Part shown: positions 10,252-37,145 of the stretch, piece by piece | Numbering within the stretch: the first letter of the stretch is position 1 | How the letters are laid out: the number at the start of each line of letters is the position of its first letter | Assembly: GCF_009914315.1 (NCBI RefSeq) | Contig: NZ_CP042596.1 | Span: 2,852,001-2,916,000, forward strand | Direction of reading: 5' to 3' | DNA from: Granulicella sp. WH15 | GTDB lineage: Bacteria > Acidobacteriota > Terriglobia > Terriglobales > Acidobacteriaceae | Length of the DNA stretch: 64,000 bases | Notes under the pieces: generated by a model | The model's database searches: none | The model's input: the letters and a program-made list of their open reading frames with translations, nothing else | Told to the model about the DNA's origin: nothing | Made by a program: the position numbers and the translations under genes

Positions 10252-10326
<75 letters not shown>

Positions 10327-10579: not shown

Positions 10580-11524
10580 ATGCCGTTGCAATCAAATGCG
10601 GAGTCTCTCCACGACCACTTCTTCCTGGACTATTTGCAATCCGTAAAGGGAGTGAACGCTTGGTATTACAACCAGCGCTTCTTGGGACGCGGGGGAAACG
10701 GAACGGCGTTCTTGGTCACATGCTCATCTGGACCAAATGTCGGTATGCAATTTGTACTAAAGGTCTTTCACAAGATCAGCGACGAGCTCCGACGCGAAGC
10801 CTTTCTGTCCGAAATTGAGCATCTCCGCTCGTTGAATCACCCTGCAATCACGCGAATCTTTGACGAAGGAACTTTCACGGCCAGTACCGGTGCCAAATAT
10901 CCGTTCGCCGTAATCGAATACGTTCCCGTTACGGCTCGCTCGCTCATCGCAGCCAAGCAGGTTGACCGGCTGAGAGCTCTCAGAATTGCACTGAACTGTC
11001 TGTCGGCTATCGACTGTCTTCATTGTGCGACGCCGCCTCTGATTCATCGTGACATCAAACCTGAAAACATTCTCATTAGCGAGATGGGTGCGAAGTTGGC
11101 CGACTTTGGATTAGTAAAGGTCTTGGCCGATCTCGAACCAGAGAACGATATCGATGCACTTGAAGGGACTCAATGGCCAGGGATGCCGTGGAGGTATCGA
11201 ACACCAGAACTAGTTCAAAGAGCGATTGACCACAAGACAGTTATTACGCCTGCAAGTGACATCTTTCAGTTTGGGACCGTCTTCTACGAACTCTTGACGG
11301 GGGTAAATCCTCAACGTCAGCCGGGCAAGATCACAGATCCAATTGCTCTAAACCTGCGTGATATCAAGGGCGATCAAGGGCAAAAGTTGACCTACTTGGT
11401 TAAGGCGATGCTTTCGAAACCGCCCTCGCATCGTCCGAGTGCGAGTGTTTGTATCGGACGACTCAACAAGATTCATGAGGCCTACTGCCAATCTCTTTTT
11501 GACGTTACCGGCCAGTTTGTTTAG
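10580..11524 (+). CDS. Ser/Thr protein kinase (Hanks type), island gene
   Basis: A stand-alone kinase domain of 314 aa with all active-site motifs: glycine-rich loop Gly-Arg-Gly-Gly-Asn-Gly (36-41), ATP lysine K61, alpha-C glutamate (78 or 80), His-Arg-Asp-Ile-Lys-Pro-Glu-Asn (156-163), Asp-Phe-Gly (175-177) and a Thr-Pro-Glu end of the activation segment (208-210). It has no membrane segment and no sensor domain, so it should be cytoplasmic. GAGG lies about 7 nt before the ATG. The large helicase-nuclease gene follows 122 nt later on the same strand; a kinase beside a COG1112-type helicase resembles the composition of Mokosh-like defence loci. I infer that the kinase regulates, or is regulated by, the helicase. 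Confidence 0.9.
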   Translation: MPLQSNAESLHDHFFLDYLQSVKGVNAWYYNQRFLGRGGNGTAFLVTCSSGPNVGMQFVLKVFHKISDELRREAFLSEIEHLRSLNHPAITRIFDEGTFTASTGAKYPFAVIEYVPVTARSLIAAKQVDRLRALRIALNCLSAIDCLHCATPPLIHRDIKPENILISEMGAKLADFGLVKVLADLEPENDIDALEGTQWPGMPWRYRTPELVQRAIDHKTVITPASDIFQFGTVFYELLTGVNPQRQPGKITDPIALNLRDIKGDQGQKLTYLVKAMLSKPPSHRPSASVCIGRLNKIHEAYCQSLFDVTGQFV

Positions 11525-11646
11525 CTGACGACCCGCTTTGTCCAGACAATTCCATTTCATTGTGTTGCGGCCTCTCCGGAAGCCTTGAGGGTTTATCCTT
11601 GTACCACTTAACAACTTGAACTCCGCCTTGGAAGCGCAGACTCATC

Positions 11647-14600
11647 ATGGGTACAGCCGGAATACCAGTAACGGAAGATTTGCGCCCAATTCTTGAGGAG
11701 GTTCGTAAAGACCTGCTCGACTTCGGGATGCGGAACCCGCTTCTCAACTACCGCTTGCTGAAAGCACGCGGTGCTGAGAGCATGCCCACCGATGCAAGCA
11801 GCATCTTCCGGCAACTGGTTGTAGAGAGTCAGGAGTTCGAGTTCGCACCTGCCTATCGAATGCGGAAACGTGAGCAACTTCTTCTCGCGGATGGGGATGC
11901 AGACTTGAAATCCGCTGATATGTCATGGAGACAACTCTCGCCTGAGCAACAGGCGCTATGGGGAAGTGGGGATGTTCCAGACGGAACACTCGCGGCCATT
12001 CATAGTGAAAAAGACCTTGAATCTAGGCTCTTGGCGACATACTATTCAGCCCGCAGTTCTGTCGAAGAACAGGGCGTCAACACGCTTTTCGTTGCTCTCG
12101 GGATGTTGGCTTGGAGCGACCCTGCAGCACCAGATGACATTCATCGCGCACCGCTGCTCCTTGTGCCGGTTGAACTGAGTAGAGAAAGTTCCTCGGAGGG
12201 ATTTCGCCTTTGCTATTCCGGTGACGATGTATCCCCAAACGTTTGCTTGATTGAGTTTCTAAAACAGTTTGGCATCGCATTTGACTCCGGTAGTGAAACT
12301 GACGAATTCGACGCTGAGCAGTACTTCGATCGGTTTGCCGAAGCAATCTCGGCGAATCCAACATGGTCTATAGATCGCCATTCGGTCGTCCTGGGTTTCT
12401 TCTCATTTTCTAAATTTCTCATGTACAGGGATCTCGATCCGTCAACATGGCCAGAAGAAAGCGTCCTCCTTAAGCACGAGCTCTTGTCAAAACTACTCGG
12501 CCAGGGTTCGTTTGCAGGCGATGGGTCATCACTGAATGAAGAGTCCTATCTTGACGAGCACCTCAGCTCAAGTAAATGCTTCCACGTAGTCGACGCCGAC
12601 AGCTCACAAACGCTTGCTCTGCTTGATGTCGCCAGCGGTAAAAGTATGGTGATCCAGGGGCCACCCGGAACGGGCAAGTCTCAAACGATCGTCAATATGA
12701 TCGCTGAAGCACTCGCAAGCAACAAGAAAATTCTTTTCGTCTCCGAAAAACAGGCAGCGCTCGATGTAGTGAAGAAGCGTCTCGACAAGATTGGTCTAGG
12801 GAACCCATGTCTTGAGCTGCACAGCAACAAGGCAAAGAAGAAGGAGGTCATCGACGAGCTAAAACGTACTGCCGGACTTGATCTGTTGGTGTCCCGGCCT
12901 CGCTCTGCTGAGCAGGAAACTCTCGCCGCTTCTCGGGAGGAACTCAACGAATACTGCCGGGCCGTTAACGAGCCTATTGGTGCGTCACGAGAAAGACCTA
13001 TCGACCTGTTTGGTCTGATATTGCCTGCTATAGCTCGACTCTCAACGGTAGACAATCCAATCCTCGATCTGCCGGATTCTATGAAGTGGGATGAAGTCGA
13101 AACTCAACGGAGACGAAATCTTGTGAAGTCGCTGCAAGATCGACTTGACTCGACCGGCATACCGGAAAAACATCCTTATTGGGGAAGTAACATCCGAGTC
13201 GTTCTTCCTGTGACGAGAGATAGGCTTCGGCACTACTGCAGGGAAGCGGCTGAGGCTACGGTGGCATTAAGACAAGCCGGTCACTCTCTGGCCAATCTTC
13301 TTGGGGCCGCGCAGCCAACATCGCCAGCAGATATTTCAAGTCTTTGCCATGTCGCTAAGAGGCTGCTCGACCCCCCACCGTTGACGGGACTGGACATTCA
13401 AAGCGGTGTCTGGGGGAAGCATCAGGCAGTTATTTTTAAGGCCATTGAAGCAGGTCGTCGTCTATCTGATATTCGAGCAAAGTGGACAAGTCTTCTACGA
13501 GCCGATGCCTGGTCGGTTGACACCCACTCTCTCCAAAATGAGCTTCAAGCCCTCGGAGTCAAGTGGTGGCGTTTCGTGTCGCCTAAGTGGAAATCGACAG
13601 TCCAGCAAGCGAAGGCGCTCCTTGCCGTACCAGGCACACGCAACGTGCCGGAATATCTGGCAATCACAAATGCCATTCAAGAAGCATCTGTGTGCGAAAA
13701 GCTTCTTGCGGAACACACGGCAGTTCTCGATGAAGCCTACGGACACCACTGGCGGGGAGGAGCCTCAGACTGGGATTTACTCAAATCTCAGATGGAAGCA
13801 GTTCTTTCAATAAGGAGTGATACTGCATCCGGCCAACTGCCGGGGTGGTGTTCGGGATTCGTAACTGGAGCGTCAGACCATGGTGCAGTCAGAAACGACG
13901 TTTCGTCGACTGAAGTTGCACTCCATCACCTCGAAGCGACTCGCAAAGCGGTCATCGAGTTGCTTAAGTTTTCCAGCGAGGACCTTGGCATTGCCGCAAC
14001 GACCCGCCCGGGCCAATCTCTTGTCAGCATCGAGGAATCATGGCTCTCTTTGGCGGATAGTGCAAGCAGTCTTGATGCTTTAGTGGCATATCTTCTGGTT
14101 CGAGAAGATTGTGTGAGCGAAGGTCTTGAAGCGCTCACGGATTTAGCTGACAAGTGGCAATCGGCTTCGTCGCATCTTGTCGATGTTTTTGACTATGCAC
14201 GGACGTCTCAACTGCTTACACATGCCTTTGAGCGATTTCCAACCCTGGTGCATTTCGATCAGAAGACTCATTCTGATCTTGTGGAGAGGTTCCGTCGACT
14301 GGATGACAAAGCCTTGAGTTGGGCGCGCGCAGCTGTCGTGACCGCGCATCATGAGGGAATGCCCCAAAGCAGTTCGGGTAACGGTCAGCTTGGCTACCTT
14401 TACACGATGTTTGAACGGAGGACTAAGTTTCCGCCAATCCGTAAGCTGATGACCAACGCCGGCTTGGCCATCCAGGCATTGAAGCCCGTTTTTATGATGA
14501 GCCCCTTATCTGTCGCGAACTTCTTGCCGCCAACCGAAGTAACTTTCGACCTCGTTATATTCGATGAAGCGAGCCAAGTACGCCCAGCAGATGCGCTTGG

Positions 14601-16443
14601 AGCTATCGTCAGAGCCTCTCAGGCGGTTGTTGTCGGCGATAGTAAGCAGCTTCCGCCGAGCAATTTTTTTGATTCCCTAGTTGCAGCGGATGGTGACGGT
14701 GACGGAATTGCAACGACCGATATCGAAAGCATCCTTGGACTCTTTTGCTCTCGAAGCGCCCATCAGAGAATGTTGCGTTGGCACTATCGCAGCAGACATG
14801 AATCGCTCATCGAGGGTTCAAATTATCTCTTTTACAAGACGTTAGTGGTGTTCCCAAGCCCAGATCAACGAAGCGAGAATCTCGGATTGATCTACAACAA
14901 GATCACCGATGCGCCATACGAACGTTCTCGAACGCGAACAAATCCGACCGAAGCCCGCATCATTGCGGAAGCTGTGATGAAGCATGCCACAGAGCAACTC
15001 AAACGTGATCCTAAGGAACGACTGACCCTTGGTGTCGCTGCCTTCAGCGTTGCGCAAAGAGACGCGATACTGGACCAACTCGAAATAGCGAGGAGAAGAT
15101 ATCCGGGACTAGAAGAGTTTTTCGCGACGCCTCCTCACGAACCGTTCTTCGTTAAAAACTTGGAAAATATCCAAGGCGACGAACGGGATGTCATCTTCAT
15201 AAGTGTCGGCTATGGGAGAACAGCAGAGGGTTATCTCGCAATGAGTTTCGGGCCAGTAAATCGAGACGGCGGTGAAAGGCGATTGAACGTGCTCTTTACC
15301 CGCGCGCGTAGGCGCTGTGAGGTCTTTACTACTCTGAGTTCAGACGATGTTGAACTGGGTCCTACGGCTGGCGCTGGACTTCGTGCGCTTAAGCATTTTC
15401 TTCAGTACGCCGAGCACGGACGGCTTGGAGTCGCTACTCCAGCAGGGCGCCTTCCCGATTCACCCTTCGAAGAACAAGTTATTGATGCGCTGGTAGGTCT
15501 CGGATACGAAGTCCATCCGCAGGTTGGTTGCGCCGGGTTCTTCATTGATATGGCGGTTGTCGACCCGAGCAAGCCAGGGCGTTATCTAATCGGCATCGAA
15601 TGCGACGGTGCTGCGTACCATAGCGCACGGAGCGCAAGAGACCGAGATCGATTGAGGGGGGCAGTCCTGCTTGGTCTCGGATGGAACCTTCACCGCATTT
15701 GGTCTACAGCTTGGTTCAAGAGCCGAGATCGCGAAGTCGAACGGCTTCAGGCCGCTATTGAGGCGGCACAGCTGGCCCCTTCGGATGCTTCTGTATCGCG
15801 CGAGATTGAGGCAGATCCTGTCGATGTCGAACTTGTTGCCGAAGTGCCACCTGTCGCCACCGAGAGAAATCAGAAATCTTCAAGCGCCATGGTTCGGCCA
15901 TATGAGTTCTGCCAACTTGACATATCGCTTAGCTCGAACGACCTTCATCTGGTGCCGATGATCCGGCTAGTGGAATGGATTAATCAAGTTGTTGCGGTCG
16001 AAAGTCCAGTTCATTGGACCGAAGCAGGTCGAAGGATAACTGACGCTCTTGGCATTCAGCGGATGGGCAGCCGGATTCAAGAAGCACTCATTCGAGCATG
16101 TGAATCGGGTGCACGGTCGAAGAAATTTAGATACAAAGATGACTTCCTCGTGAGTATTACGCAGGAACAATATCCTGTCCGGGACCGTTCTGCGTTTTCT
16201 CCGCAAACAAAGAAACTTGAATACGTTTCGCCTGCAGAGATATGTGCGGCAGTGGAGCAAGTCGTGATGGAGGGTTTTGGGATGCCCAGTGACGATATTC
16301 CTGTAGCGGTATGCCGACTATTAGGATTCGCACGAGTGAGCGAAGACATGCGTGTAATAGTTTCTGCCTGTCGCGATTCTCTTATTTCAGCGGGACGATT
16401 GCAGCAGCGGTCAGGGATGCTCATTCACGAGATGATGAGCTAA
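11647..16443 (+). CDS. DUF4011-SF1 helicase-REase-DUF3320 large protein
   Basis: A 1598-aa multidomain ATPase. The N-terminus matches DUF4011 (Leu-Leu-Asp-Phe-Gly-Met-Arg-Asn-Pro-Leu-Leu-Asn-Tyr near residue 24). A superfamily 1 helicase of the COG1112/AAA_11-AAA_12 type follows: Walker A Gly-Pro-Pro-Gly-Thr-Gly-Lys-Ser (338-345), Asp-Glu-Ala-Ser (about 973-976), Gly-Asp-Ser-Lys-Gln-Leu-Pro-Pro (about 997-1004) and a motif VI Thr-Arg-Ala-Arg (about 1217). Next is a Vsr/MTES_1575-like nuclease domain with Phe-Ile-Asp and Glu-Cys-Asp-Gly (1318-1321) plus Tyr-His. A DUF3320-like tail starts near 1439. The several hundred residues between motifs Ia and II form a long insertion. The enzyme probably unwinds and cuts nucleic acid. 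It is paired with the upstream kinase and is likely defence-related by inference. Confidence 0.9.
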   Translation: MGTAGIPVTEDLRPILEEVRKDLLDFGMRNPLLNYRLLKARGAESMPTDASSIFRQLVVESQEFEFAPAYRMRKREQLLLADGDADLKSADMSWRQLSPEQQALWGSGDVPDGTLAAIHSEKDLESRLLATYYSARSSVEEQGVNTLFVALGMLAWSDPAAPDDIHRAPLLLVPVELSRESSSEGFRLCYSGDDVSPNVCLIEFLKQFGIAFDSGSETDEFDAEQYFDRFAEAISANPTWSIDRHSVVLGFFSFSKFLMYRDLDPSTWPEESVLLKHELLSKLLGQGSFAGDGSSLNEESYLDEHLSSSKCFHVVDADSSQTLALLDVASGKSMVIQGPPGTGKSQTIVNMIAEALASNKKILFVSEKQAALDVVKKRLDKIGLGNPCLELHSNKAKKKEVIDELKRTAGLDLLVSRPRSAEQETLAASREELNEYCRAVNEPIGASRERPIDLFGLILPAIARLSTVDNPILDLPDSMKWDEVETQRRRNLVKSLQDRLDSTGIPEKHPYWGSNIRVVLPVTRDRLRHYCREAAEATVALRQAGHSLANLLGAAQPTSPADISSLCHVAKRLLDPPPLTGLDIQSGVWGKHQAVIFKAIEAGRRLSDIRAKWTSLLRADAWSVDTHSLQNELQALGVKWWRFVSPKWKSTVQQAKALLAVPGTRNVPEYLAITNAIQEASVCEKLLAEHTAVLDEAYGHHWRGGASDWDLLKSQMEAVLSIRSDTASGQLPGWCSGFVTGASDHGAVRNDVSSTEVALHHLEATRKAVIELLKFSSEDLGIAATTRPGQSLVSIEESWLSLADSASSLDALVAYLLVREDCVSEGLEALTDLADKWQSASSHLVDVFDYARTSQLLTHAFERFPTLVHFDQKTHSDLVERFRRLDDKALSWARAAVVTAHHEGMPQSSSGNGQLGYLYTMFERRTKFPPIRKLMTNAGLAIQALKPVFMMSPLSVANFLPPTEVTFDLVIFDEASQVRPADALGAIVRASQAVVVGDSKQLPPSNFFDSLVAADGDGDGIATTDIESILGLFCSRSAHQRMLRWHYRSRHESLIEGSNYLFYKTLVVFPSPDQRSENLGLIYNKITDAPYERSRTRTNPTEARIIAEAVMKHATEQLKRDPKERLTLGVAAFSVAQRDAILDQLEIARRRYPGLEEFFATPPHEPFFVKNLENIQGDERDVIFISVGYGRTAEGYLAMSFGPVNRDGGERRLNVLFTRARRRCEVFTTLSSDDVELGPTAGAGLRALKHFLQYAEHGRLGVATPAGRLPDSPFEEQVIDALVGLGYEVHPQVGCAGFFIDMAVVDPSKPGRYLIGIECDGAAYHSARSARDRDRLRGAVLLGLGWNLHRIWSTAWFKSRDREVERLQAAIEAAQLAPSDASVSREIEADPVDVELVAEVPPVATERNQKSSSAMVRPYEFCQLDISLSSNDLHLVPMIRLVEWINQVVAVESPVHWTEAGRRITDALGIQRMGSRIQEALIRACESGARSKKFRYKDDFLVSITQEQYPVRDRSAFSPQTKKLEYVSPAEICAAVEQVVMEGFGMPSDDIPVAVCRLLGFARVSEDMRVIVSACRDSLISAGRLQQRSGMLIHEMMS

Positions 16444-18799: not shown

Positions 18800-19399
18800 T
18801 CAAATCGCTCGCCCATAAACGATCCGAACACGTTTCGACTTCTTGAAGTAGAGGAACCATATCAAAGCGAAAACGAGCATTCTTAGGCCACTCGGGTCGG
18901 ACGCGGCCTTACCTGGAGATGAATCGCTGGTGGAGCTGATTAGCTCACCGATGAAGAGCAGCGTTCCAAGACAGAACTGGATTACCAGAAGGATCTTCGT
19001 AAGACGCAGCGCCCGGGGCTTGGCTTTCCAGAGGCTAACTCCGGTGAAGACAGAAAAAGCAGCAAGGCATACATCTATCAGCGAATAGCCCGATGGGTGC
19101 GAGAGTGTGGAAACCAGAACCATTGCCGGTGAAATGATCGTGGTGACAATACAAAACCAGAGAAGCCAGCCGCCCACGCCAACTAAATTAGGGTACTCAT
19201 TGCGAATGGTATCCACCGCCGCTCCAGGTTGGAGTTCAGGCGATTGGCTGGACACCGCTGGATAAATGGGAGTCCCGCCTGCGACGACAGTGGACTGTTG
19301 AACCGCGACAGCAGCGGGCGATACGACTAGCTCTTTGCCGCAGTTGAAGCAAAACACGCCAGCATCGGGATTTTGAGCGCTACATCCCACGCAATACAT
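18800..19399 (-). CDS. Zinc-ribbon plus DUF2569-like membrane protein
   Basis: A 199-aa protein, last gene of the chaperone-kinase operon. It begins with a zinc ribbon, Cys-Val-Gly-Cys (residues 3-6) and Cys-Phe-Asn-Cys (17-20), followed by a flexible Ser/Pro-rich linker. A membrane part of about four helices starts at Gly-Val-Gly-Gly-Trp-Leu-Leu-Trp, the hallmark of DUF2569-type proteins. It ends in a basic stretch (Lys-Lys-Ser-Lys-Arg-Val-Arg). The start is only 2 nt from the FHA gene stop, so the two are co-transcribed. It could be the membrane anchor or output of the module; this is inferred from position only. Confidence 0.75.
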   Translation of the reverse strand: MYCVGCSAQNPDAGVFCFNCGKELVVSPAAVAVQQSTVVAGGTPIYPAVSSQSPELQPGAAVDTIRNEYPNLVGVGGWLLWFCIVTTIISPAMVLVSTLSHPSGYSLIDVCLAAFSVFTGVSLWKAKPRALRLTKILLVIQFCLGTLLFIGELISSTSDSSPGKAASDPSGLRMLVFALIWFLYFKKSKRVRIVYGRAI

Positions 19400-19401
19400 C
19401 G

Positions 19402-19947
19402 CTAACCTCTCAAATCGGCAAAGAGAAATGTATTGATCTTTGATGGCCCGAGTGAGATGACATCACCATGAGCCAACGGTCGACTGGCACGAATCAATTC
19501 TTGCTCCGCGTCGGATGACGGCTGATCCAGCCGCTCTCCGTTCAAAAATGTGCCGCATGAACTCCCTTTGTCGATGAGCCAGTAATCATCGCTTTCCCCT
19601 CCCTCACGTCTATAGACGGCACAATGAACCCGTGAAACCTCGCGCGGCAGCAGTCCCACGGCATCGTTCACAAAGACATCGACTGCCTTATCCAGAATCG
19701 GCTCCAATGGCGTTGCCAGACGACCCATGACGATTTCGTCGCATCGCAGCGGGACGATAGCCTGAGAATATGGACCTGCTCCTAAAAGGTAGACGCCGAC
19801 ATCGAGGGTGGAAAGGACCTGCCTGATCTTCGCTGCACGGTCGGAACGTCCCTCTACCGTGAACAAAGCGAGGTCCTGCAGGCGACCTGTAACCGCTAGG
19901 TCGTCAAGCGTACGGGCGAGTTGCTTTTGTTTGTTCACATCTGCCAA
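19402..19947 (-). CDS. FHA-domain phosphothreonine-binding protein
   Basis: A 181-aa cytoplasmic protein. An N-terminal helical region (about 1-45) precedes a forkhead-associated domain with Met-Gly-Arg (the GR of the domain), Val-Ser-Arg-Val-His-Cys (the SxxH motif) and Ser-Cys-Gly-Thr-Phe-Leu-Asn-Gly (the N-G loop). These are the residues that contact phosphothreonine, so binding should be functional. In this operon the partner that makes phosphothreonine is presumably the Ser/Thr kinase encoded at the other end. It lies 12 nt after the Hsp70 stop and 2 nt before the zinc-ribbon gene. I infer that it reads kinase phosphorylation of the Hsp70 or of the membrane protein. Confidence 0.88.
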   Translation of the reverse strand: MADVNKQKQLARTLDDLAVTGRLQDLALFTVEGRSDRAAKIRQVLSTLDVGVYLLGAGPYSQAIVPLRCDEIVMGRLATPLEPILDKAVDVFVNDAVGLLPREVSRVHCAVYRREGGESDDYWLIDKGSSCGTFLNGERLDQPSSDAEQELIRASRPLAHGDVISLGPSKINTFLFADLRG

Positions 19948-19959
19948 TGGTCGTAGTCC

Positions 19960-22452
19960 CTATCTTGCTCGGAGGGTACTGCCGCCGTAGCCAACAGTCT
20001 GTACATCACGCGGCAATAATGCGTTTAGTTGGCGGCAAGCAACCTTGAGAGCTTCGGTATCGCCGCTTGCGATTGCACGATCAGCATGGACTAACCAACG
20101 ATCTGCCTGCGTCTCATCTGTCATTTTCGCTTTTTCGCCTGCTAGATACTCGCGGTATCCCAGCCAGTATTCAGGTGTCCGCAGCCACAGTTCAATTCTT
20201 TGCGTTGCTAACGCATCTATCGCCTTCCGCAAAATCTCTGGATCGGCTGTAAGCGCAAGTTCGGTGTTTCGCTTCAGATCAATAAACTTTGCCCGATTTT
20301 CATCGGTGCCGACCTCCTCCAAAAGCGCCTGAGTCCACCGCAGCTCATCTTGGGCCTCCTGTTGCATCTTGGGTGCTGTCAGAATCACTTCGATACGTCG
20401 CCTGGCGCGACGAAGGGCAACTAGCTGTTCCTCACAACTTTTCAGATCGGCGTCCGTTCCTCCGTGTTGCAACAAATTCTGAATTCCCTGAACTACCTCT
20501 TGACGTTTCATCGACTCAAGCTCAATCAATGCCGGTTTGCTCTTGACCGCTTCTGCGAGTTCCTGACTCTCATTGAGAGCATTCCGTTCTGTTCTAAACT
20601 CCTGCTCTATCTCTCCGATTGGAAGTGCTGGCTTGATGAGTCCATTTATGCTGACTTCTTTTTCTAGGTCAAGAATAGGTATATACACACTCGCCTTGAT
20701 TGTCCTTGAATCATCGATGGCTAATCGTATTTCCACCCCGGAACCGGAAGGAAGATCACGATCAATCATCGAACCAGTGAGGACGAACTCACCAATCTTG
20801 CGATTTTCGTCCGCAGCATCTGTCGCTTCTCCCTCGATGAGAGGAACCCGCAGCGCATCGTCCCGATTGCCGCGTCTAATAAGGCCTATCGTCACATGCT
20901 TCGCAGTGGCTTTCGCGGGCAATGGCGTCCCTTTAGCGAATAGAACATGAACTCGATTGCCAGCCTCGGCGATGCCGATGTTGTGTGTCAACGGTGGTTT
21001 AGTAATCGTCAAGCCGACGGTATAAGTGAACACGGACGGAGTAACTGAGCAGGCCCTTCCGCTCTGATCAAAAAGTTCGACGTGGTATTCATTTGCACTC
21101 CCCGACTGAGCCAACAGGAAACCACTGAACGTCCCTGCATCATCTAGAGGAATCTTCCCACTGTCCCAGGGGGGCATACCGCCAGGATTATTGAAACGAA
21201 TCGTGTACCCGCTGAGGGACTTCCCAGATGGAGCCAAAACAGTTCCGCCCACGAGCGGTTCAAGATCGCTTCCTATGGGATCGTATGTCAAGGCGACCGT
21301 AAATGTTCCGGCGGCAGTGGGAGTGGGACGCCTTGCAGGTAGTCGTCTGCTACCTGCAAAAATCGCAGCCCCTTGAGCTACAACGGTCAGGGGATCGGCC
21401 GAAAAATCGACCGGAATGCCTAACCCTTCCTTCGGGTCAGCGAGAATCTCTCGAAGGAAGGGCGTATACGTTGGACCTCCGACCAGGATCGTTCGTTCGA
21501 TATGACCTGCCGATAGTTTTGCTTCTCCCAGTACCCGCCTGCACATATCAATTGAGCGATACACAAGAGGACGGAGAACTGACTCAACTTCCGACCTTGT
21601 AAGCAGGTAGTCCAGTTCCACGGGCCTCCCGTTGTCATCGTTGCATACGAAGTCTTTCTGGATTGACTCTGCTTTCTCTTTCGATACGGCAATCTTGGCA
21701 TCCTCCGCCCACTCCTTCAACTTTGCGAACGCCGAAATCCACTTCTCATTACCACGACGAAAATCCGTGAGGGCATATTCGCTCGTCAGATGTGGGACTA
21801 GAAAGTTGTCAACCAAAGCCCAATCAAGATCACCGCCGCCGAGGTAGTTATCGCCGCCATGATTGACTACTTGTATCTCTCCGTCGCGCACATGAATGAC
21901 TGCGGCGTCGAAAGTTCCCCCGCCAAAGTCATAGACGAGCCAAAACGCATTCTTCTGAGTTTCCTGAAATCCATATGCTAGAGCAGCAGCGATTGGCTCC
22001 TGTAGCAATGGACTCGATACAAATCCTGCAAGTGATGCCGCGCGCTTCGTTGCTTCAGAAGCTGGAAGATCGAAAGAAGCCGGCACCGTAATTACGGTGG
22101 CTTCCAAATCTTCGCCCTTCTGCTTTTTAACTTCATCACGAAGCGCCTTTAGGACTTCAGCAGACAACTGTTCTGCATTCATGCGGATTCCGCTACGAAC
22201 GAATTCCTTGTGCTGGGTCGTTCCCATCCACCGTTTGAATCCTCCAACTGCGTCGCTGGGATGGGAAACGAGACGATCTTTAGCCCTCTTCCCTGTACGG
22301 ATACTGCCATCCTTGTCAACGTAAACTGCCGAAGGCGTATAGGGCCATCCCTCGTTGTTGCGAATAATAACGGCCCCAGTGCTTTCGAGCACAGAAATGC
22401 AGCTATTGGTAGTGCCCAAGTCTATTCCGTAATCAATCGTCATCCGTTCCAT
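19960..22452 (-). CDS. Enlarged Hsp70/DnaK-like chaperone, island type
   Basis: An 830-aa Hsp70; canonical DnaK is about 640. The ATPase domain is complete: Gly-Ile-Asp-Leu-Gly-Thr-Thr-Asn-Ser (9-17), Lys73 in Phe-Lys-Arg-Trp-Met-Gly, Asp-Phe-Gly-Gly-Gly-Thr-Phe-Asp (175-182), Glu-Pro-Ile-Ala-Ala-Ala (152-157) and the adenosine motif Val-Gly-Gly-Pro (324-327). About 100 extra residues (roughly 383-482) with an immunoglobulin- or carboxypeptidase-regulatory-like beta pattern come next. They precede a recognisable start of the substrate-binding domain (Phe-Ala-Lys-Gly-Thr-Pro-Leu-Pro, about 505-512). The C-terminal 240 residues are helical and charged, longer than a normal lid. MTIDYG, three codons in, is an alternative start. 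It lies 7 nt after the GrpE-like gene. Confidence 0.93.
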   Translation of the reverse strand: MERMTIDYGIDLGTTNSCISVLESTGAVIIRNNEGWPYTPSAVYVDKDGSIRTGKRAKDRLVSHPSDAVGGFKRWMGTTQHKEFVRSGIRMNAEQLSAEVLKALRDEVKKQKGEDLEATVITVPASFDLPASEATKRAASLAGFVSSPLLQEPIAAALAYGFQETQKNAFWLVYDFGGGTFDAAVIHVRDGEIQVVNHGGDNYLGGGDLDWALVDNFLVPHLTSEYALTDFRRGNEKWISAFAKLKEWAEDAKIAVSKEKAESIQKDFVCNDDNGRPVELDYLLTRSEVESVLRPLVYRSIDMCRRVLGEAKLSAGHIERTILVGGPTYTPFLREILADPKEGLGIPVDFSADPLTVVAQGAAIFAGSRRLPARRPTPTAAGTFTVALTYDPIGSDLEPLVGGTVLAPSGKSLSGYTIRFNNPGGMPPWDSGKIPLDDAGTFSGFLLAQSGSANEYHVELFDQSGRACSVTPSVFTYTVGLTITKPPLTHNIGIAEAGNRVHVLFAKGTPLPAKATAKHVTIGLIRRGNRDDALRVPLIEGEATDAADENRKIGEFVLTGSMIDRDLPSGSGVEIRLAIDDSRTIKASVYIPILDLEKEVSINGLIKPALPIGEIEQEFRTERNALNESQELAEAVKSKPALIELESMKRQEVVQGIQNLLQHGGTDADLKSCEEQLVALRRARRRIEVILTAPKMQQEAQDELRWTQALLEEVGTDENRAKFIDLKRNTELALTADPEILRKAIDALATQRIELWLRTPEYWLGYREYLAGEKAKMTDETQADRWLVHADRAIASGDTEALKVACRQLNALLPRDVQTVGYGGSTLRAR

Positions 22453-22459
22453 TTAATCG

Positions 22460-22894
22460 CTACCTCGGGAGAATCTGCGGAGTTGCCACAATTACTTGAC
22501 CAATCTGTATACGTTGACCCTGGAGATACACCGTGGGTCTGATGGTTTCAGCCACAGTCTCTCGTTCTACGCCGGGAGTCGGCTGGAATGCGAGGACTTC
22601 AAGCGATTGCCCAGAGTCAAATGGCTGGTTGTAGTGATCTTGGATATTGAGTCCAACTCGCTCTAAAGAGTCCCAGAGGCGTTCCACATGGCGAGCCATC
22701 TTGGCCAAGTGGGGCTTTGGCTCTCCCGAGACGGAGTCAACACAACCTTTCCGCATATCCCATGCGGAGTTTGCAAGGTCAAGGAAAAAGTCCCCTGGCA
22801 CACTCAATGGACGGGGACCGGCCACACCTTCGGCGCCTAACATCGAAGGGGACTGGATTCCTCTAAATTCATTGGCAGATCGAAAATCTTTCAT
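22460..22894 (-). CDS. GrpE-head-like protein (predicted nucleotide exchange factor)
   Basis: A 144-aa protein. The C-terminal 60 residues (about 80-138) follow the GrpE beta-head pattern: a Gly-Leu-Asn-Ile start, Gln-Pro-Phe-Asp, a Glu-Val strand, Thr-Pro-Gly-Val, then Val-Tyr-Leu-Gln-Gly-Gln-Arg-Ile and Ile-Val-Ala-Thr-Pro. The N-terminus is short and lacks the long paired helices of canonical GrpE; one helix (about 64-82) leads into the head. It sits directly before the Hsp70 gene and overlaps the receiver-domain gene stop by 4 nt. I infer that it releases ADP from the neighbouring Hsp70. Sequence similarity is modest, so structure prediction would be the test. Confidence 0.65.
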   Translation of the reverse strand: MKDFRSANEFRGIQSPSMLGAEGVAGPRPLSVPGDFFLDLANSAWDMRKGCVDSVSGEPKPHLAKMARHVERLWDSLERVGLNIQDHYNQPFDSGQSLEVLAFQPTPGVERETVAETIRPTVYLQGQRIQIGQVIVATPQILPR

Positions 22895-25161
22895 TGGGCG
22901 TTCACCATCTTGTTGAGATTATCAATTTTGGTATTCGTCTCGCCTAGCAAATCCTCGTATTCACTATGAAGGCTGTGACCACGAGAAATGTCCGCATTGA
23001 AGTCCCTTACGTTCCGATTGTGCCTACTCCTCACGCGTTCATATTCATCTTGATCGATCTGAACTCCTGCGCCATTGTCGCTCTCCATGTGCTCCAAGGT
23101 GGCCTTGTCAGCATCAATCTTGCTTTTGTAATCATCCATCTCAGAGTTGAGGCTCTGAAGTTCTCCCTCAAGGCTCGCTAGTCGAGCTTTCGATTGTGCA
23201 ATTTCCTCTCGCAAACTCGTGATGCTTGCCTGATTCGAGCCCGCAGTTGAACCTTTATCAGTGGAGGAGTCTGGAATCGAGATAGGTGCGACCGGTGGAT
23301 TCGTGTTAAGCGTGGTTCCCGACGCAGGAGAGCTGTCACTTGTATTGTTCGTTTCGCCACCGCTCGAAAGAACTAGAATCACGATCACGAGAATGGCGAC
23401 CACCATACCGACTGCCATCTTGCCAAGCTTTGGTAGCTTGCGCCATACTTGTCCGAGTGCATATCCCCGTCGAACTGCTTTGGAGGTGCCTTGAGCTGCG
23501 CTCGAGGCCTGTCTAGTGTCACCACGCGAAGAAGACTGGCTCCGAGTCCCAGCGGATGCCCCAGGACGCCCCTGTCCAGAAGCAGCCAATTTCCGCTCTA
23601 CTACCCCAATCTCCTCTGCCAGTCTCGCTCGAAGTTCTTCGCTGTGAGCAAGTGCCATGCAGTCTTCAAAGAGTGGAAGGGCCACAGCCCACCCATCAGT
23701 TTTGTTCACATAGTCTATGAGGCATCCTCGAATCGTACGTGCGACTTGATCGTGAGCATCATTGCGGCGCTGATCGTTGACTCCGACGAGGCAGTTCAGC
23801 GTCTTTAGAATGGGTGTCTTCGCAGTTCGTAGACTTTCCACTACCGTCGCTCCTTGTTCGGGAGCAGCGTCCACCTTTGATGTCGCCTGTTGGCAGATGA
23901 GCGTCAGATATTCCAGAAGAGGAGTGAGCGCACGGTAAAGGGCTTTATCAGCGTGTTCCGTTCCGAGGCCGGATGAATACATTAGCTGCCGTTGCCGCGC
24001 GGCCTCGGCGTATTCACTCTTTTCTCCGGCCTTCACGGCATTCTGAGCGTTGATGTAAAGCAGCGCCTCCGGTAGCGTTCTCCACATACTTCGCGCAAGC
24101 TCTGGAGTTATACGCGGATCATTCATTTCCTTAATGCGTTGAATATAGTGATCCCAGAAACGACTATTGGTTGCGACAGTCTGCCAATGACGGAAAGCGT
24201 CCCCCCATAGCGTAGTAGCCGAAATGGTTTGGCCAGAGATGCCAGAAGTTTCACCCTCCAATGCCCTCAAGTGACTAAACACGGCTAAATTATGGGTAGC
24301 GATACCTCGGGGATCATCTCCAATAGACCGCCGTCCCCACTCGGCTAAAGCCAGAGCCGAATCATTCGCTGCAAGTGAAGCAAATGCGCTATCCTCCGCA
24401 CCATCCGGCCAGAACCAAAAGAAATCCTGTAGAAGCCTTTTCTCCGGATCGCTTATCAAAGCAAATGCGGCTTCCAGATCGTCGTCATCTGGCTCGACGG
24501 CACTCGAAATCAAGCACTTTGGCTTCCACGCACGATTCAAGCTCTTGCTCATCCCAAACTCTTGGTAGGCACGCTTGATTTCGCGTGAAGTTGCGCTCAC
24601 CTGAAGTCCCGTGAGACGAAAGGCGTTCGACTGATACACCTTTGCGTTGGCGACTGCGAACAATGGCGTGTAGGGAGACGCCTGAATCTGACCCGTAGGC
24701 GCTACGTCATTCGCCCCCTCTGACCTGTCTGGAGGCCGTTCGGGAGATTGAGTAGAAGATGAGGTTGTGAGGGGTTCAGCCGGAGATCCGACGCCGATTG
24801 CAGCTTGAATATATGCAACGAGATCAGCGTTAGGTCTATTCGTAGCAAATGCAGCGCAATCGATTCCATCGCGCACCAGACCATCAACGAGAGCTTGAAA
24901 GTCTTCGTCTCCGGCAAGATCAGTTAGGAAGAGAACTTTGCAGCCCGTCGCTGCAAAGATGTGATTCGCAGCTTCAAGGCCTGATAGGCCTGGCATGACC
25001 GGATCAATGATAAGCAGCGCAGGATCGTTCTTTGCAACTCGAATCGCATCGTCCGAATTGCAGGCGAGTGACACGTCGTATCCGCTGCGCCTTAAAAAAG
25101 ACGAGAGTTCGTTGGAGACCCGCTGATCGTGATTGGCAATAAGGATTCTACGATTCGTCAT
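22891..25161 (-). CDS. Receiver domain-J-like-TM-coiled-coil hybrid protein
   Basis: A 756-aa fusion. Residues 1-122 are a CheY-like receiver with the acid pocket at Asp12, phospho-acceptor Asp53 (Ile-Ile-Asp-Pro-Val-Met-Pro-Gly) and Thr80; the usual switch lysine is replaced by Asn. After a Ser/Pro linker comes a J-domain-like segment (about 178-252): Asn-Ala-Phe-Arg-Leu-Thr-Gly-Leu, Arg-Glu-Ile-Lys-Arg-Ala-Tyr, then Ala-Phe-Ala-Leu-Ile-Ser-Asp-Pro-Glu-Lys-Arg. It lacks the His-Pro-Asp motif that stimulates Hsp70. A helical region of about 270 residues, one membrane helix (about 578-598) and a C-terminal coiled coil (about 643-756) follow. It is the J-type candidate partner of the Hsp70 encoded 439 nt downstream. 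Confidence 0.75.
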   Translation of the reverse strand: MTNRRILIANHDQRVSNELSSFLRRSGYDVSLACNSDDAIRVAKNDPALLIIDPVMPGLSGLEAANHIFAATGCKVLFLTDLAGDEDFQALVDGLVRDGIDCAAFATNRPNADLVAYIQAAIGVGSPAEPLTTSSSTQSPERPPDRSEGANDVAPTGQIQASPYTPLFAVANAKVYQSNAFRLTGLQVSATSREIKRAYQEFGMSKSLNRAWKPKCLISSAVEPDDDDLEAAFALISDPEKRLLQDFFWFWPDGAEDSAFASLAANDSALALAEWGRRSIGDDPRGIATHNLAVFSHLRALEGETSGISGQTISATTLWGDAFRHWQTVATNSRFWDHYIQRIKEMNDPRITPELARSMWRTLPEALLYINAQNAVKAGEKSEYAEAARQRQLMYSSGLGTEHADKALYRALTPLLEYLTLICQQATSKVDAAPEQGATVVESLRTAKTPILKTLNCLVGVNDQRRNDAHDQVARTIRGCLIDYVNKTDGWAVALPLFEDCMALAHSEELRARLAEEIGVVERKLAASGQGRPGASAGTRSQSSSRGDTRQASSAAQGTSKAVRRGYALGQVWRKLPKLGKMAVGMVVAILVIVILVLSSGGETNNTSDSSPASGTTLNTNPPVAPISIPDSSTDKGSTAGSNQASITSLREEIAQSKARLASLEGELQSLNSEMDDYKSKIDADKATLEHMESDNGAGVQIDQDEYERVRSRHNRNVRDFNADISRGHSLHSEYEDLLGETNTKIDNLNKMVNAQ

Positions 25162-25172
25162 CTACATCTGCC

Positions 25173-26282
25173 TCACATCGAAATACCACGACGCCACAAC
25201 CTCAGTCTTGCTTCATATTCTCGATTCAGTTCCGGCGATTCGTTGAGCGCCTTTTCCATCAGGCGCACGGCTTCGCTGAGTCTTGCTGGGTCCTGTGCGA
25301 TTGCTATCGACCGCAAAGCCAGTTGCCGCCCTAAGTGCTCCCTCGCTTGAGGGGTGGTTCCCAGTACTCCCTTTGAGGTATTCCCAGGGCTGCCGGAACC
25401 ACTCTTAGCTCTGTCGGTTCGCTTTGTGTCAGGTCGCCATGCCTCAAGCGCAGTCAGGAACTCCATGGCCGATCCATAACGCTCCTTCGGATCAACTTTT
25501 AAGCCTTTGAGGACGACCTGATCCAACTCAGAATCGCAGAGAGCGTTCCATCGGCTAGGCGGTGGAGGCGGGTTGCTGAATGTGTCGGCAGTTCCATGCG
25601 ACAGCCCGTCTTCGATTTCATATGGCAAGCGATCAGTGAGCAACAGATAAAGAGTGGTTCCGAGAGCCCAAACGTCCCCACTCAAGGAGTCGCCTTGAAT
25701 GTCCTGAAGCGCTTCCGGTGCTTTAAAAGAAACGGTACCGCGTGACGTGGCCATGAGCGTCAGTGGATTGACATTCTTCGCTAGTCCGAAGTCTGAAACC
25801 CGCGCCCGAATGCCGTTGGTTTCGTGACCGATCAAGATGTTCTGGGGTTTGATGTCTCGGTGGATAATGGGTGGATTGTGTGAGTGTGCAACCGCAATCC
25901 CTTTGCATACCTGCCGCATCACTTCAACGACATCCTTTACCGGCATGAACTGCGCTCCGAAAGAACGCCAGTATTGGGAGAGACTGCCCCCGGCGATGTA
26001 TTCCATTGTGAAGAAGCCAAAGGTGTCCCCCATCAGACTTGCCGTATTGGCGTCATATACCCGAACGATATTGGGATGGTTGATCTTGGACAGCAAGACG
26101 GCTTCTCCGAGCATCGCGGAAACCTCGTCCGGCGACCAGCCAGGTGCTTTGAAAAACTTCATCGCCTGCCGTCCGAGAAACCTGTGTTTGACCCGATACA
26201 CTTCGGCGAATGCTCCCTCACCGAGAAAGGCCTCGACCTCATAGGTTTCGTTGATGCAAAGTCCGTCTGCTAAAAGGGCCAT
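25173..26282 (-). CDS. Ser/Thr protein kinase, first gene of the chaperone operon
   Basis: A 369-aa kinase with complete motifs: Leu-Gly-Glu-Gly-Ala-Phe-Ala-Glu-Val (20-28), Lys42, Glu60, His-Arg-Asp-Ile-Lys-Pro-Gln-Asn (141-148), Asp-Phe-Gly (164-166) and an Ala-Pro-Glu activation-segment end. The catalytic domain ends near residue 280. A Lys/Ser/Gly-rich linker follows, then a helical tail of about 80 residues that reads like a short TPR-type repeat (Ala-Val-Arg-Leu-Met-Glu-Lys-Ala-Leu). There is no membrane helix. It lies 11 nt upstream of the receiver-hybrid gene and starts a six-gene operon. The FHA protein at the far end is the natural reader of its phosphorylation, which is an inference from the pairing. 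Confidence 0.92.
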   Translation of the reverse strand: MALLADGLCINETYEVEAFLGEGAFAEVYRVKHRFLGRQAMKFFKAPGWSPDEVSAMLGEAVLLSKINHPNIVRVYDANTASLMGDTFGFFTMEYIAGGSLSQYWRSFGAQFMPVKDVVEVMRQVCKGIAVAHSHNPPIIHRDIKPQNILIGHETNGIRARVSDFGLAKNVNPLTLMATSRGTVSFKAPEALQDIQGDSLSGDVWALGTTLYLLLTDRLPYEIEDGLSHGTADTFSNPPPPPSRWNALCDSELDQVVLKGLKVDPKERYGSAMEFLTALEAWRPDTKRTDRAKSGSGSPGNTSKGVLGTTPQAREHLGRQLALRSIAIAQDPARLSEAVRLMEKALNESPELNREYEARLRLWRRGISM

Positions 26283-26858
26283 ATCGGTACGAGGGAACTC
26301 CGGTCAGAAGTGATCCTGATTTTTGTATACGACTGTGAGGGTGTTGTGGGCTTTTTTGTGTCGAGTCGAGTGCTGACAGTATATCGTTCCGCGCCAAGCA
26401 CTTGCCGTCTTGCCGATACAACATTGCGTCGTAGTCCCGTTACACAGGCCTACCGCACCTATTCCTCTTGCTCGACGAGATAACGTAAAGACTTTTTGCT
26501 TCGTTTGGGAGGAAGTCTCCTCCCGTCTGCGGCTGCTTTGCATCCTCCGCCCCCACCTCTGCGGGGCGGTCCGCCCTCCCCGCAACGCCCCTCCGAGAAG
26601 GAACAACAGCAACCGCCAAAACCTCTAAGGGGAGGTATCCCCTCGCACCCGCAAGCCACTCCCCAATCTTCCGCGCTTCGCTTGTGCAGACCTCCGCTGC
26701 GCTCCGCCCTTTCCACTTCCGCTGCGCTCTCGTTGCAAGGGTGGGGATACCCCTCGGCTTGCAGTTGCTACCCCCCACCTTCGCCAGGAGGCGTTCGGCA
26801 TGTACATGCCGCGTTTCAACGCGGAAATGCAAAGGCCAACGCCAAGGAGGAAGCACCC
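26283..26858. other. Long structured leader between kinase operon and ardC-like gene
   Basis: 576 bases between divergent genes. The left part is AT-richer and should hold the promoter of the minus-strand kinase operon. The right part (about 26500-26850) is GC-rich and full of short self-complementary elements: GGGAGGA/TCCTCCC at 26507-26524, and two loose GGGG-ATAC-CCCC types near 26625-26645 and 26738-26755. A frame stays open through it in phase with the antirestriction gene, but it is arginine-, proline- and serine-rich with a poor start, so I treat it as untranslated. No RNA family is recognised. Confidence 0.4.
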
Positions 26859-27785
26859 ATGAACACACAAGCCACCACCGCCACCGTCACCCCGTTTACC
26901 CAGAACCTTAAACAGCAGCAGCAAAAGCAACAGACCGCGAGAGAGGTAATCGCGGCCAACGTGCAAGCCCTCATAGAGCAGTTGGAGCAGGGACACAGCG
27001 AAGGACTCACAGCCTATCTTTTGGCGATGGGGAAATTTCACAACTATAGCTTCGGGAACATTATGGAGATTGCGCGGCAGAGACCGGACGCAACCCGCGT
27101 AGCCGGAATGTATGCGTGGAACCAGCTTGGCCGGAGAGTCAAGAAGGGCGAGAAAGGCATTCGCATTCTCGTGCCGATGATTGGGATTCGGCGGAAGAAA
27201 GATGCGGAAGTCGAGAAGGACATCCGCACCCAGAACCAGCCGGTACTGGTGGGATTTCGTTCGGCCTACGTCTTCGATGTCAGCCAGACCGACGGCGCAG
27301 AACTCCCCGAACTGTCCGAGCGCGTGAAGGGTAATGTCGGAGAACACCGCGAACGTTTGATTGATCTTGTCATTGCTCAGGGGATCGAGCTTGATTGGAA
27401 GGAGAGCATTTCCCCCGCGTTGGGTGTCAGCTATGGCGGGAAGATTGTTCTCTTTCCCGGTCAGGAAACCGCCGAGGAGTTTTCGACCCTCGTTCACGAA
27501 CTCGCGCACGAGATGTTGCACAAGGCGGAACGTCGCACCGCCACCACCAAGACCGTTCGCGAGACTGAAGCCGAAGCAATCGCCTTTGTTGTCGGCAAGA
27601 CCATCGGCCTCGACAGCGGACGGGCATCCGCCGATTATATCCACCTGTACCACGGCAACGCCGCACTTTTGACCGAGAGCTTGGAAGTGATTCAGAAGAC
27701 CGCCGCCGTCATTCTTTCTGCTCTGGAAACTACCGGAGGGGAACGCTCGACCGGAGCCAAAACAGAAGCCAGGAACACAGCATAG
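26859..27785 (+). CDS. ArdC-like antirestriction protein with HExxH peptidase domain
   Basis: A 308-aa protein. The N-terminal half matches the ArdC single-stranded-DNA-binding domain (DUF1738): a Phe-His-Asn-Tyr-Ser-Phe-Gly-Asn segment, Gly-Arg-Arg-Val-Lys-Lys-Gly-Glu-Lys-Gly-Ile-Arg and a Phe-Arg-Ser-Ala-Tyr-Val-Phe-Asp strand. The C-terminal half is an ImmA/IrrE-type metallopeptidase with His-Glu-Leu-Ala-His-Glu (HExxH) and a downstream glutamate in Glu-Thr-Glu-Ala-Glu. AGGAGG lies 8 nt before the ATG at 26859, which fixes the start. ArdC proteins protect incoming plasmid DNA from host restriction. This suits its place at the head of the mobilisation module. Confidence 0.88.
   Translation: MNTQATTATVTPFTQNLKQQQQKQQTAREVIAANVQALIEQLEQGHSEGLTAYLLAMGKFHNYSFGNIMEIARQRPDATRVAGMYAWNQLGRRVKKGEKGIRILVPMIGIRRKKDAEVEKDIRTQNQPVLVGFRSAYVFDVSQTDGAELPELSERVKGNVGEHRERLIDLVIAQGIELDWKESISPALGVSYGGKIVLFPGQETAEEFSTLVHELAHEMLHKAERRTATTKTVRETEAEAIAFVVGKTIGLDSGRASADYIHLYHGNAALLTESLEVIQKTAAVILSALETTGGERSTGAKTEARNTA

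Positions 27786-37100: not shown

Positions 37101-37145
<45 letters not shown>

Follow-up and report, generated by a model that had tools for sequence, protein, structure and literature searches.

The bacterium Granulicella sp. WH15 carries, within the 64,000-nucleotide stretch of DNA analysed here (the window; contig NZ_CP042596.1, positions 2,852,001 to 2,916,000), a compact six-gene operon built around an Hsp70 and a serine/threonine protein kinase (STK). An initial annotation of this DNA had described six closely spaced genes, and that layout holds: six open reading frames (ORFs) occupy the minus strand from 26282 to 18800 at the positions claimed, in the order STK, receiver (REC)/J-like protein, GrpE-like protein, Hsp70, FHA-domain protein and zinc-ribbon membrane protein, spaced successively by 11 nt, a 4-nt overlap, and 7, 12 and 2 nt, with Pfam recognizing the kinase, receiver, Hsp70 and FHA domains.

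The leading gene (25173..26282, minus strand like the five that follow) encodes a 369-aa kinase (Pfam Pkinase, 1.2e-44) in which the catalytic Lys, HRD and DFG are present by eye and hydropathy finds no transmembrane segment; its kinase core is 58% identical to that of L025 and 63% to that of L024, where the kinase belongs to the same block (L numbers denote individual relative loci). Next comes a 756-aa REC/J-like hybrid (22891..25161; Pfam Response_reg, 4.9e-9), consisting of a receiver at residues ~1–120, a J-like and helical region without the HPD motif at ~166–560, a single transmembrane helix by hydropathy at 575–605, and a coiled coil. By eye the receiver keeps its acceptor Asp, but has NHD as its acid pair and Asn in place of the conserved Lys (Lys in Edaphobacter modestus); the domain looks partly degenerate and, because of the last two features, may be phosphorylation-independent. 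The 144-aa GrpE-head-like protein (22460..22894) is assigned by profile homology, its Pfam GrpE match (0.092) lying under cut-off. The Hsp70 (19960..22452, 830 aa; Pfam HSP70, 9.4e-75) comprises a nucleotide-binding domain (NBD) that coincides with the best-matching stretch, residues 9–367, an insert at ~367–485, a beta substrate-binding domain (SBD-beta) from ~486 and a helical C-terminus. It is followed by a 181-aa FHA-domain protein with a TTG start (19402..19947; Pfam FHA, 6.2e-11), which by eye has GR, SRVH and, within GTFLNG, the Asn, residues of the phosphothreonine site; an FHA gene was also found at L031 and L038. The last gene (18800..19399; Pfam DUF2569, 9.2e-7; zinc-ribbon families weak and under cut-off) encodes a protein with several predicted transmembrane segments, its hydrophobic stretches lying at residues 71–101, 105–124 and 130–156. 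The kinase and FHA motifs to which the initial annotation had drawn attention are thus borne out both by eye and by Pfam.

The GrpE and J assignments, which the initial annotation had offered with less assurance, stand at the level of profiles. Aligned by HHalign, the family profile of the GrpE-like protein matches canonical GrpE across the head (P=93.3, E=2.8e-7) and that of the J-like protein matches DnaJ (P=81.5, E=1.2e-5), against 0.1–0.8% for unrelated families and maxima of 1.0% (DnaJ) and 0.6% (GrpE) over 30 column-shuffled versions per target. A profile search of the PDB likewise ranks GrpE (4ani) first for the GrpE-like family, weakly (E=0.018), and a J-domain (4j7z) first for the J-like family (E=0.0016). 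At 144 aa, and with an alignment that begins at column 139 of 233 in the GrpE profile, the GrpE-like protein appears too short for the long paired N-terminal helices (dimer) of canonical GrpE; 56 of its N-terminal residues lie outside the alignment. These results support the identification of the GrpE-like protein as a homologue of the GrpE head, with a predicted contact to the NBD, and of the J-like region as a J-domain homologue whose fold would follow from that homology.

Set against this retained parts list, the elements through which a J-protein switches Hsp70 have gone. The HPD motif occurs in none of the 23 J-like sequences that span its site (22 distinct sequences without L037), a count that excludes the second E. 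modestus J fragment, which does not cover the site, and the TPR-J proteins of L006, L021 and L023, in which HPD is not present either. Family-specific conserved residues of the J-like proteins instead include P74, R77, F83 and W84, invariant in 19. On the Hsp70 side, the position of DnaK R167 holds Arg in 0 of 28 family members (Pro in 17, Ser in 3, Val in 3, Glu in 2, and Leu, Ala and Gln in one each), compared with Arg in both DnaKs of the host; the linker motif is likewise found in 0/28, both host DnaKs carrying DLLLLDV, and NBD and SBD lie 112–122 residues apart in all 28 rather than the 15 and 20 of the two host DnaKs. These counts omit the fragmentary or too divergent Hsp70s of L029, L030, L034, L047 and L050 and the first Hsp70 of L032. 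At the expected place of the linker the window's Hsp70 has the insert, about 115 aa long, which gives the impression by eye of being beta-rich and immunoglobulin-like, and for which no match appears among the 60 of 96 PDB matches listed. What is kept is equally consistent: K73, E152, D175 and T180, the catalytic positions of Hsp70, are invariant across 26 aligned sequences, and the C-terminal family profile matches the DnaK SBD (1dky) at E=1.4e-11.

In canonical Hsp70, the aspartate of HPD disturbs a network that is centred on R167 and takes in the linker and the SBD, and ATPase activation requires the linker to dock (PMC7289447). With HPD present in 0/23, an R167 equivalent in 0/28 and an insert of ~115 aa in the linker's place, the canonical J switch is absent, and both partners have therefore lost matching elements. 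The same three absences rule out a complete canonical Hsp70 cycle, such as the initial annotation had thought apparent.

The operon recurs as a unit. In Edaphobacter modestus (L031) the same six genes align with window positions 18921–26322 at 81.9% DNA identity over 7435 bp, the alignment ending 40 and 121 bp from the operon's ends, and the 17 kb of this locus hold no further match to the window outside the block; as the operon alone is shared, it has been moved or retained as a single block while its surroundings differ. Of the six gene pairs, the five with both members intact (the REC/J gene of E. modestus, split into two ORFs, was excluded) give dN/dS of 0.07–0.135 and are under purifying selection. 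More widely in the phylum, a profile of the Hsp70 C-terminus matches 12 of 395 genomes, among them the one to which the window belongs; scanning named genomes yielded 21 loci. The loci belong to Acidobacteriota, Verrucomicrobiota, Frankia and Omnitrophota and to metagenome-assembled genomes labelled as one Phycisphaerales, Chloroflexi, Actinomycetes and two proteobacterial; such labels may be wrong, because L036 and L037 resemble one sequence placed in two bins. L037, whose gene coordinates equal those of L036 although it is binned to another phylum, was dropped, and L024, L025 and L026, whose contigs match L051, L035 and L044 in length, were taken to duplicate them.

A search for this gene order in other genomes, which the initial annotation had proposed, thus finds all six genes in E. 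modestus and, by a six-frame profile scan of the Hsp70 strand, the order kinase-J-GrpE-Hsp70 at 11 of 21 distinct close loci (the window is one of the 21, L037 is not). The shorter order J-GrpE-Hsp70 is seen at 17 of the 21. The other four are L034 and L050, which run into contig ends, L047, where the Hsp70 is broken and neither GrpE nor J is matched, and L051, where the J-like match lies downstream instead. Since the family's own members supplied the hidden Markov models, the presence of these genes is not independent evidence; their order is. A query with GrpE alone, matching 3 of 299 genomes of the class (the window's and two others), led in all three to J-GrpE-Hsp70 blocks. A Clp-type AAA+ gene follows Hsp70 at L035 (by Pfam), L044, L047 and L051, and one lies nearby on the opposite strand at L037. 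In the Hsp70 tree, from which neither root nor deep order was taken since several rows are long and a wrong ORF stands for one DnaK, the window's sequence and that of E. modestus pair at 100/100, apart from three other Acidobacteriota rows (100/100), with a Frankia group at 100/100 and a Verrucomicrobiota group at 87/92. Elsewhere the Granulicella sp. WH15 genome has canonical grpE and dnaJ as a pair, another strong match to dnaJ, and two DnaK genes, so the operon's Hsp70 set is an extra one. Individual loci add their own variations: at L032 (4456–9419) GrpE is followed by two tandem Hsp70 genes, the first matching the family profile over residues 1–477 only and sitting on a long branch, and at L035 (2321–4765) and L044 (2258–3058) the kinase comes after a gene for a sigma-70 region 2 protein (recognized by Pfam in L035 and by profile in L044) and another small gene, which suggests dedicated transcriptional control.

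Distant relatives L004, L005, L007, L020 and L022 keep the J-GrpE-Hsp70 order, with an AAA+ protein behind it in L004, L005 (by Pfam) and L020. TPR proteins are present at L006, L021, L022 and L023. At L027, L028 and L030 an Hsp70 was found and GrpE was not matched, and at L029 a weak GrpE match lies by a contig end. The conjugative plasmid pSDM007 of Pseudomonas hygromyciniae (L006, 8226–13260) carries a trio of TPR-J-like, GrpE-head and Hsp70 genes of which the annotation names Hsp70 alone. On plasmid pHALHY02 of Haliscomenobacter hydrossis (L007, 251–23497) the related block lies between SIR2 and the BrxL/PglZ genes of a BREX system and encodes a J-like protein, a fusion of transmembrane segment, coiled coil and GrpE, an Hsp70, a kinase-AAA+ fusion and then TerB. 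At L005 (12893–18089) the J-GrpE-Hsp70-AAA block adjoins a helicase-nuclease that a transposase-like ORF appears to interrupt. Among other collections, plasmids gave two records with the Hsp70 C-terminus and none with GrpE, and E. coli genomes gave none with a DNA query. IMG/VR scans by GrpE and by the Hsp70 C-terminus, pattern-based and suited to close relatives only, found no relative. The whole Hsp70, the one query run against GenBank phage records, matched 37, none of them over more than 80% of its length, and the 15 listed cover at most 50%, reaching up to residue 424. With no close relative from the IMG/VR scans, a phage-borne origin was rejected.

How might such a machine work? Transmembrane segments are predicted in 8 of 11 J-like relatives and in 8 of 9 TPR proteins checked, one of the latter also showing an OmpA-like match under cut-off; together with the kept FHA and kinase motifs, they lead us to propose a membrane-attached machine whose assembly is set by phosphorylation. 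We lean, with some reservation, towards reading the operon as a dedicated, kinase-regulated accessory Hsp70 remodelling machine, attached to the inner membrane, in which the J switch has been replaced. This proposal builds on what the operon and its relatives display: gene order, conservation, profile homologies, lost and kept motifs and predicted membrane segments. The kinase would answer a signal, possibly envelope or protein stress, and the membrane-anchored J-like protein would bring in Hsp70, which could bind a client through its kept SBD using its kept ATPase site and be reset by the GrpE-head protein. The FHA protein may read phosphothreonine made by the kinase and so couple the machine to the zinc-ribbon membrane protein. 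With HPD, Arg167 and the DVLLLD linker gone on both sides, ATP hydrolysis must be triggered otherwise, most likely by the insert, by kinase-controlled assembly, or by both. Where a Clp-type or FtsH-like AAA+ protein is encoded after Hsp70, as in some relatives, it may take over clients; these genes beside Hsp70 suggest a hand-over to an unfoldase. More tentatively still, the family may constitute a widespread class of Hsp70 that has lost the J switch and linker, retains its ATPase residues, SBD and J- and GrpE-homologous partners, and runs an HPD-independent cycle, switched by Ser/Thr kinases through a new interdomain insert.

Several observations weigh against a kinase-regulated membrane machine of this kind. 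The J-like proteins of L039, L040 and L049 have no transmembrane segment by hydropathy, and the stretches examined of L039, L040, L041, L045, L046 and L049 contain no kinase, so that kinase control does not extend to the whole family. Decay or poor assembly affects some copies, as the two ORFs of the E. modestus J-like gene, a GrpE-like match in two frames at L033 and the broken Hsp70 of L047 indicate. Single-sequence Pfam searches leave GrpE under cut-off in all four GrpE-like proteins tested (best L051 at 0.0046; the window's at 0.092 as above), and Pfam DnaJ matches none of the four J-like proteins tested, the window's among them. Finally, the controls for R167 and the linker are just two canonical DnaKs, both from the host.

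The surroundings of the operon bear on a second reading. It was said to lie in a tRNA-borne island beside AbiE and a helicase-nuclease, and the island's limits could be confirmed: a tRNA-Asn gene marks the left end (10252..10326, plus strand; ARAGORN), and 45 bp identical to its 3' end (10282–10326) mark the right (37101..37145, plus strand; blastn-short E=9e-21). Between them, besides the operon, lie AbiEi/AbiEii, a DUF4011 helicase-nuclease, a TrwC relaxase and ArdC; nine island proteins searched with Pfam include no integrase. With its TrwC-type relaxase/helicase (30814–33573) and ArdC-like antirestriction protein (26874–27785), the island looks like an integrative mobilizable element. A second Ser/Thr kinase stands just upstream of the DUF4011-helicase-MTES_1575 nuclease on the same strand (10580–16443); the helicase-nuclease matches PADLOC PDC-S37 at 1753 bits, and the two are possibly a kinase-linked defence unit.

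The operon could be an anti-phage or conflict system, in which the Hsp70 module sets a threshold for sensing phage proteins or misfolding, kinase and FHA relay the signal, and the zinc-ribbon multi-transmembrane protein acts as an effector that damages the membrane. The relaxase-bearing tRNA island with its AbiE, helicase-nuclease, further kinase and ArdC speaks for it, as do the distant relatives beside BREX and SIR2 (L007), BrxL (L023) and a helicase-nuclease (L005), the patchy presence in 12/395 genomes of the phylum, and the thresholding role proposed for chaperones in other conflict systems (PMC7159879). Inside the operon, however, PADLOC 2.0.0 matches no system: the hits are kinase models (25 of 34 families listed) and LmuB, the latter low-scoring (E of at least 3e-4) and confined to the coiled-coil end of the J-like protein, and Pfam recognizes no nuclease, NADase or toxin among the six proteins. 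The proposed effector, moreover, occurs only in the window and E. modestus among the scanned loci, a TPR-transmembrane protein standing in its place in most others. Of 20 flanking proteins searched with Pfam, 16 remained once one sigma factor, two Clp-type AAA+ proteins and one wrong-frame ORF had been excluded: six are housekeeping, eight unmatched, and the last two, an integrase (L036) and a DNA methylase (L038), are alone in being mobile or defence-like. A PADLOC scan of 119 flanking ORFs from 25 loci, naively called and omitting the window, L006, L007, L021, L029, L034, L037, L047 and L050, was set against 119 control ORFs drawn at random from 175 (13 stretches of seven genomes); 25 of 33 families are listed for the flanks and 25 of 78 for the controls, whose list is filled by generic kinases, and the comparison favours neither side. 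One ORF, L043:3406-4278, which overlaps a real kinase in another frame, is in both flank scans. Ten candidate defence proteins of the flanks gave three matches, BrxL (L023) and two pieces of the L005 helicase-nuclease. With 14 of the 16 flanking proteins housekeeping or unmatched and no relative from the pattern-based IMG/VR scans, the defence role that the initial annotation had guessed at is not established, and we regard it as unlikely.

It is less likely again that the operon is a pure signalling scaffold, its Hsp70 running no chaperone cycle and instead gating the kinase, either as an ATP-dependent clamp or as a platform for assembly. Loss of HPD, the R167 equivalent and the linker motif would suit such a role, as would the frequent association with kinase or TPR genes, but the invariant catalytic residues, the SBD-beta match (E=1.4e-11), the retained GrpE-like protein and the recurring AAA+ neighbours indicate a working chaperone. 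A spurious call for both the J-like and the GrpE-like protein, leaving an orphan Hsp70 that simply shares a kinase operon with unrelated small helical and beta proteins, is very improbable: single-sequence Pfam does fail for both and the PDB matches are weak, yet P=93 and P=81.5 stand against at most 1% in 60 column-shuffled and all unrelated-family controls, the PDB profiles rank GrpE and DnaJ first, and the J-GrpE-Hsp70 order is conserved.

Comparison with known systems places the operon near several and within none of them. With DnaK-DnaJ-GrpE it shares an Hsp70 NBD with catalytic residues, an SBD-beta and co-encoded J- and GrpE-homologous partners; it differs in having no HPD, R167 equivalent or DVLLLD, in its ~115-aa insert, in a GrpE cut to about the head, and in the kinase and FHA genes joined to it. 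DnaK-ClpB is a bi-chaperone disaggregase, which the Clp-type AAA+ genes by Hsp70 at L035, L044, L047, L051 and L037 bring to mind; the window's operon, by contrast, has no AAA+ protein, and any cooperation in the relatives is putative. Myxococcus xanthus offers a further parallel in MXAN_6671 and MXAN_6672, presumably SglK and GrpS. These encode MxDnaK2 and its nucleotide exchange factor, so that one operon combines an additional Hsp70 and a GrpE dedicated to it (PMC11019930); the difference from ours is a linker described there as almost identical to that of MxDnaK1; neither 'kinase' nor 'FHA' occurs in the main text of that article.

The nearest published architecture we found is the HSP70 theme of the GAP1-N2 GTPase systems (Kaur et al. 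2020; PMC7159879), which comprise HSP70, GrpE and DnaJ- or TPR-fused proteins, are membrane-linked and occur in several of the same phyla. At the centre of those systems, by contrast, stand a GTPase and GAP1, accompanied by FNIII-repeat proteins, and kinase and HSP70 are described there as non-overlapping themes. Membership was rejected, Pfam finding neither GTPase nor GAP1 in the operon, the island or the flanking proteins scanned; FNIII-repeat proteins were not seen in the operon or those flanking proteins. CoCoNuT systems (PMC11090510) also place Hsp70-like NBD/SBD proteins in predicted defence systems, some with an STK in a TerY-P triad; their Hsp70-like proteins differ in being fused to or encoded with McrB/McrC homologues and in a degenerate Walker-A-like motif. 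The operon is neither a CoCoNuT, since its Hsp70 keeps the catalytic positions and Pfam finds no McrBC, nor a TerY-P triad, since by Pfam it has no vWA and no PP2C and its kinase no zinc ribbon. Named PADLOC 2.0.0 systems were likewise set aside, no component matching beyond generic kinase and LmuB models. Among the listed matches of the open-access literature searched, no named system has this gene set, in agreement with the initial annotation.

The Hsp70 cycle is regarded as centring on stimulation by HPD, which acts through one arginine of the NBD and the linker. By keeping the parts list and dropping all three of these contact elements, the operon family is a natural experiment in the rewiring of Hsp70 allostery. 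It also connects chaperone action with eukaryote-like kinase signalling in bacteria, and it provides a testable role for accessory genes that lack a name in Acidobacteriota, Verrucomicrobiota, Frankia and other groups.

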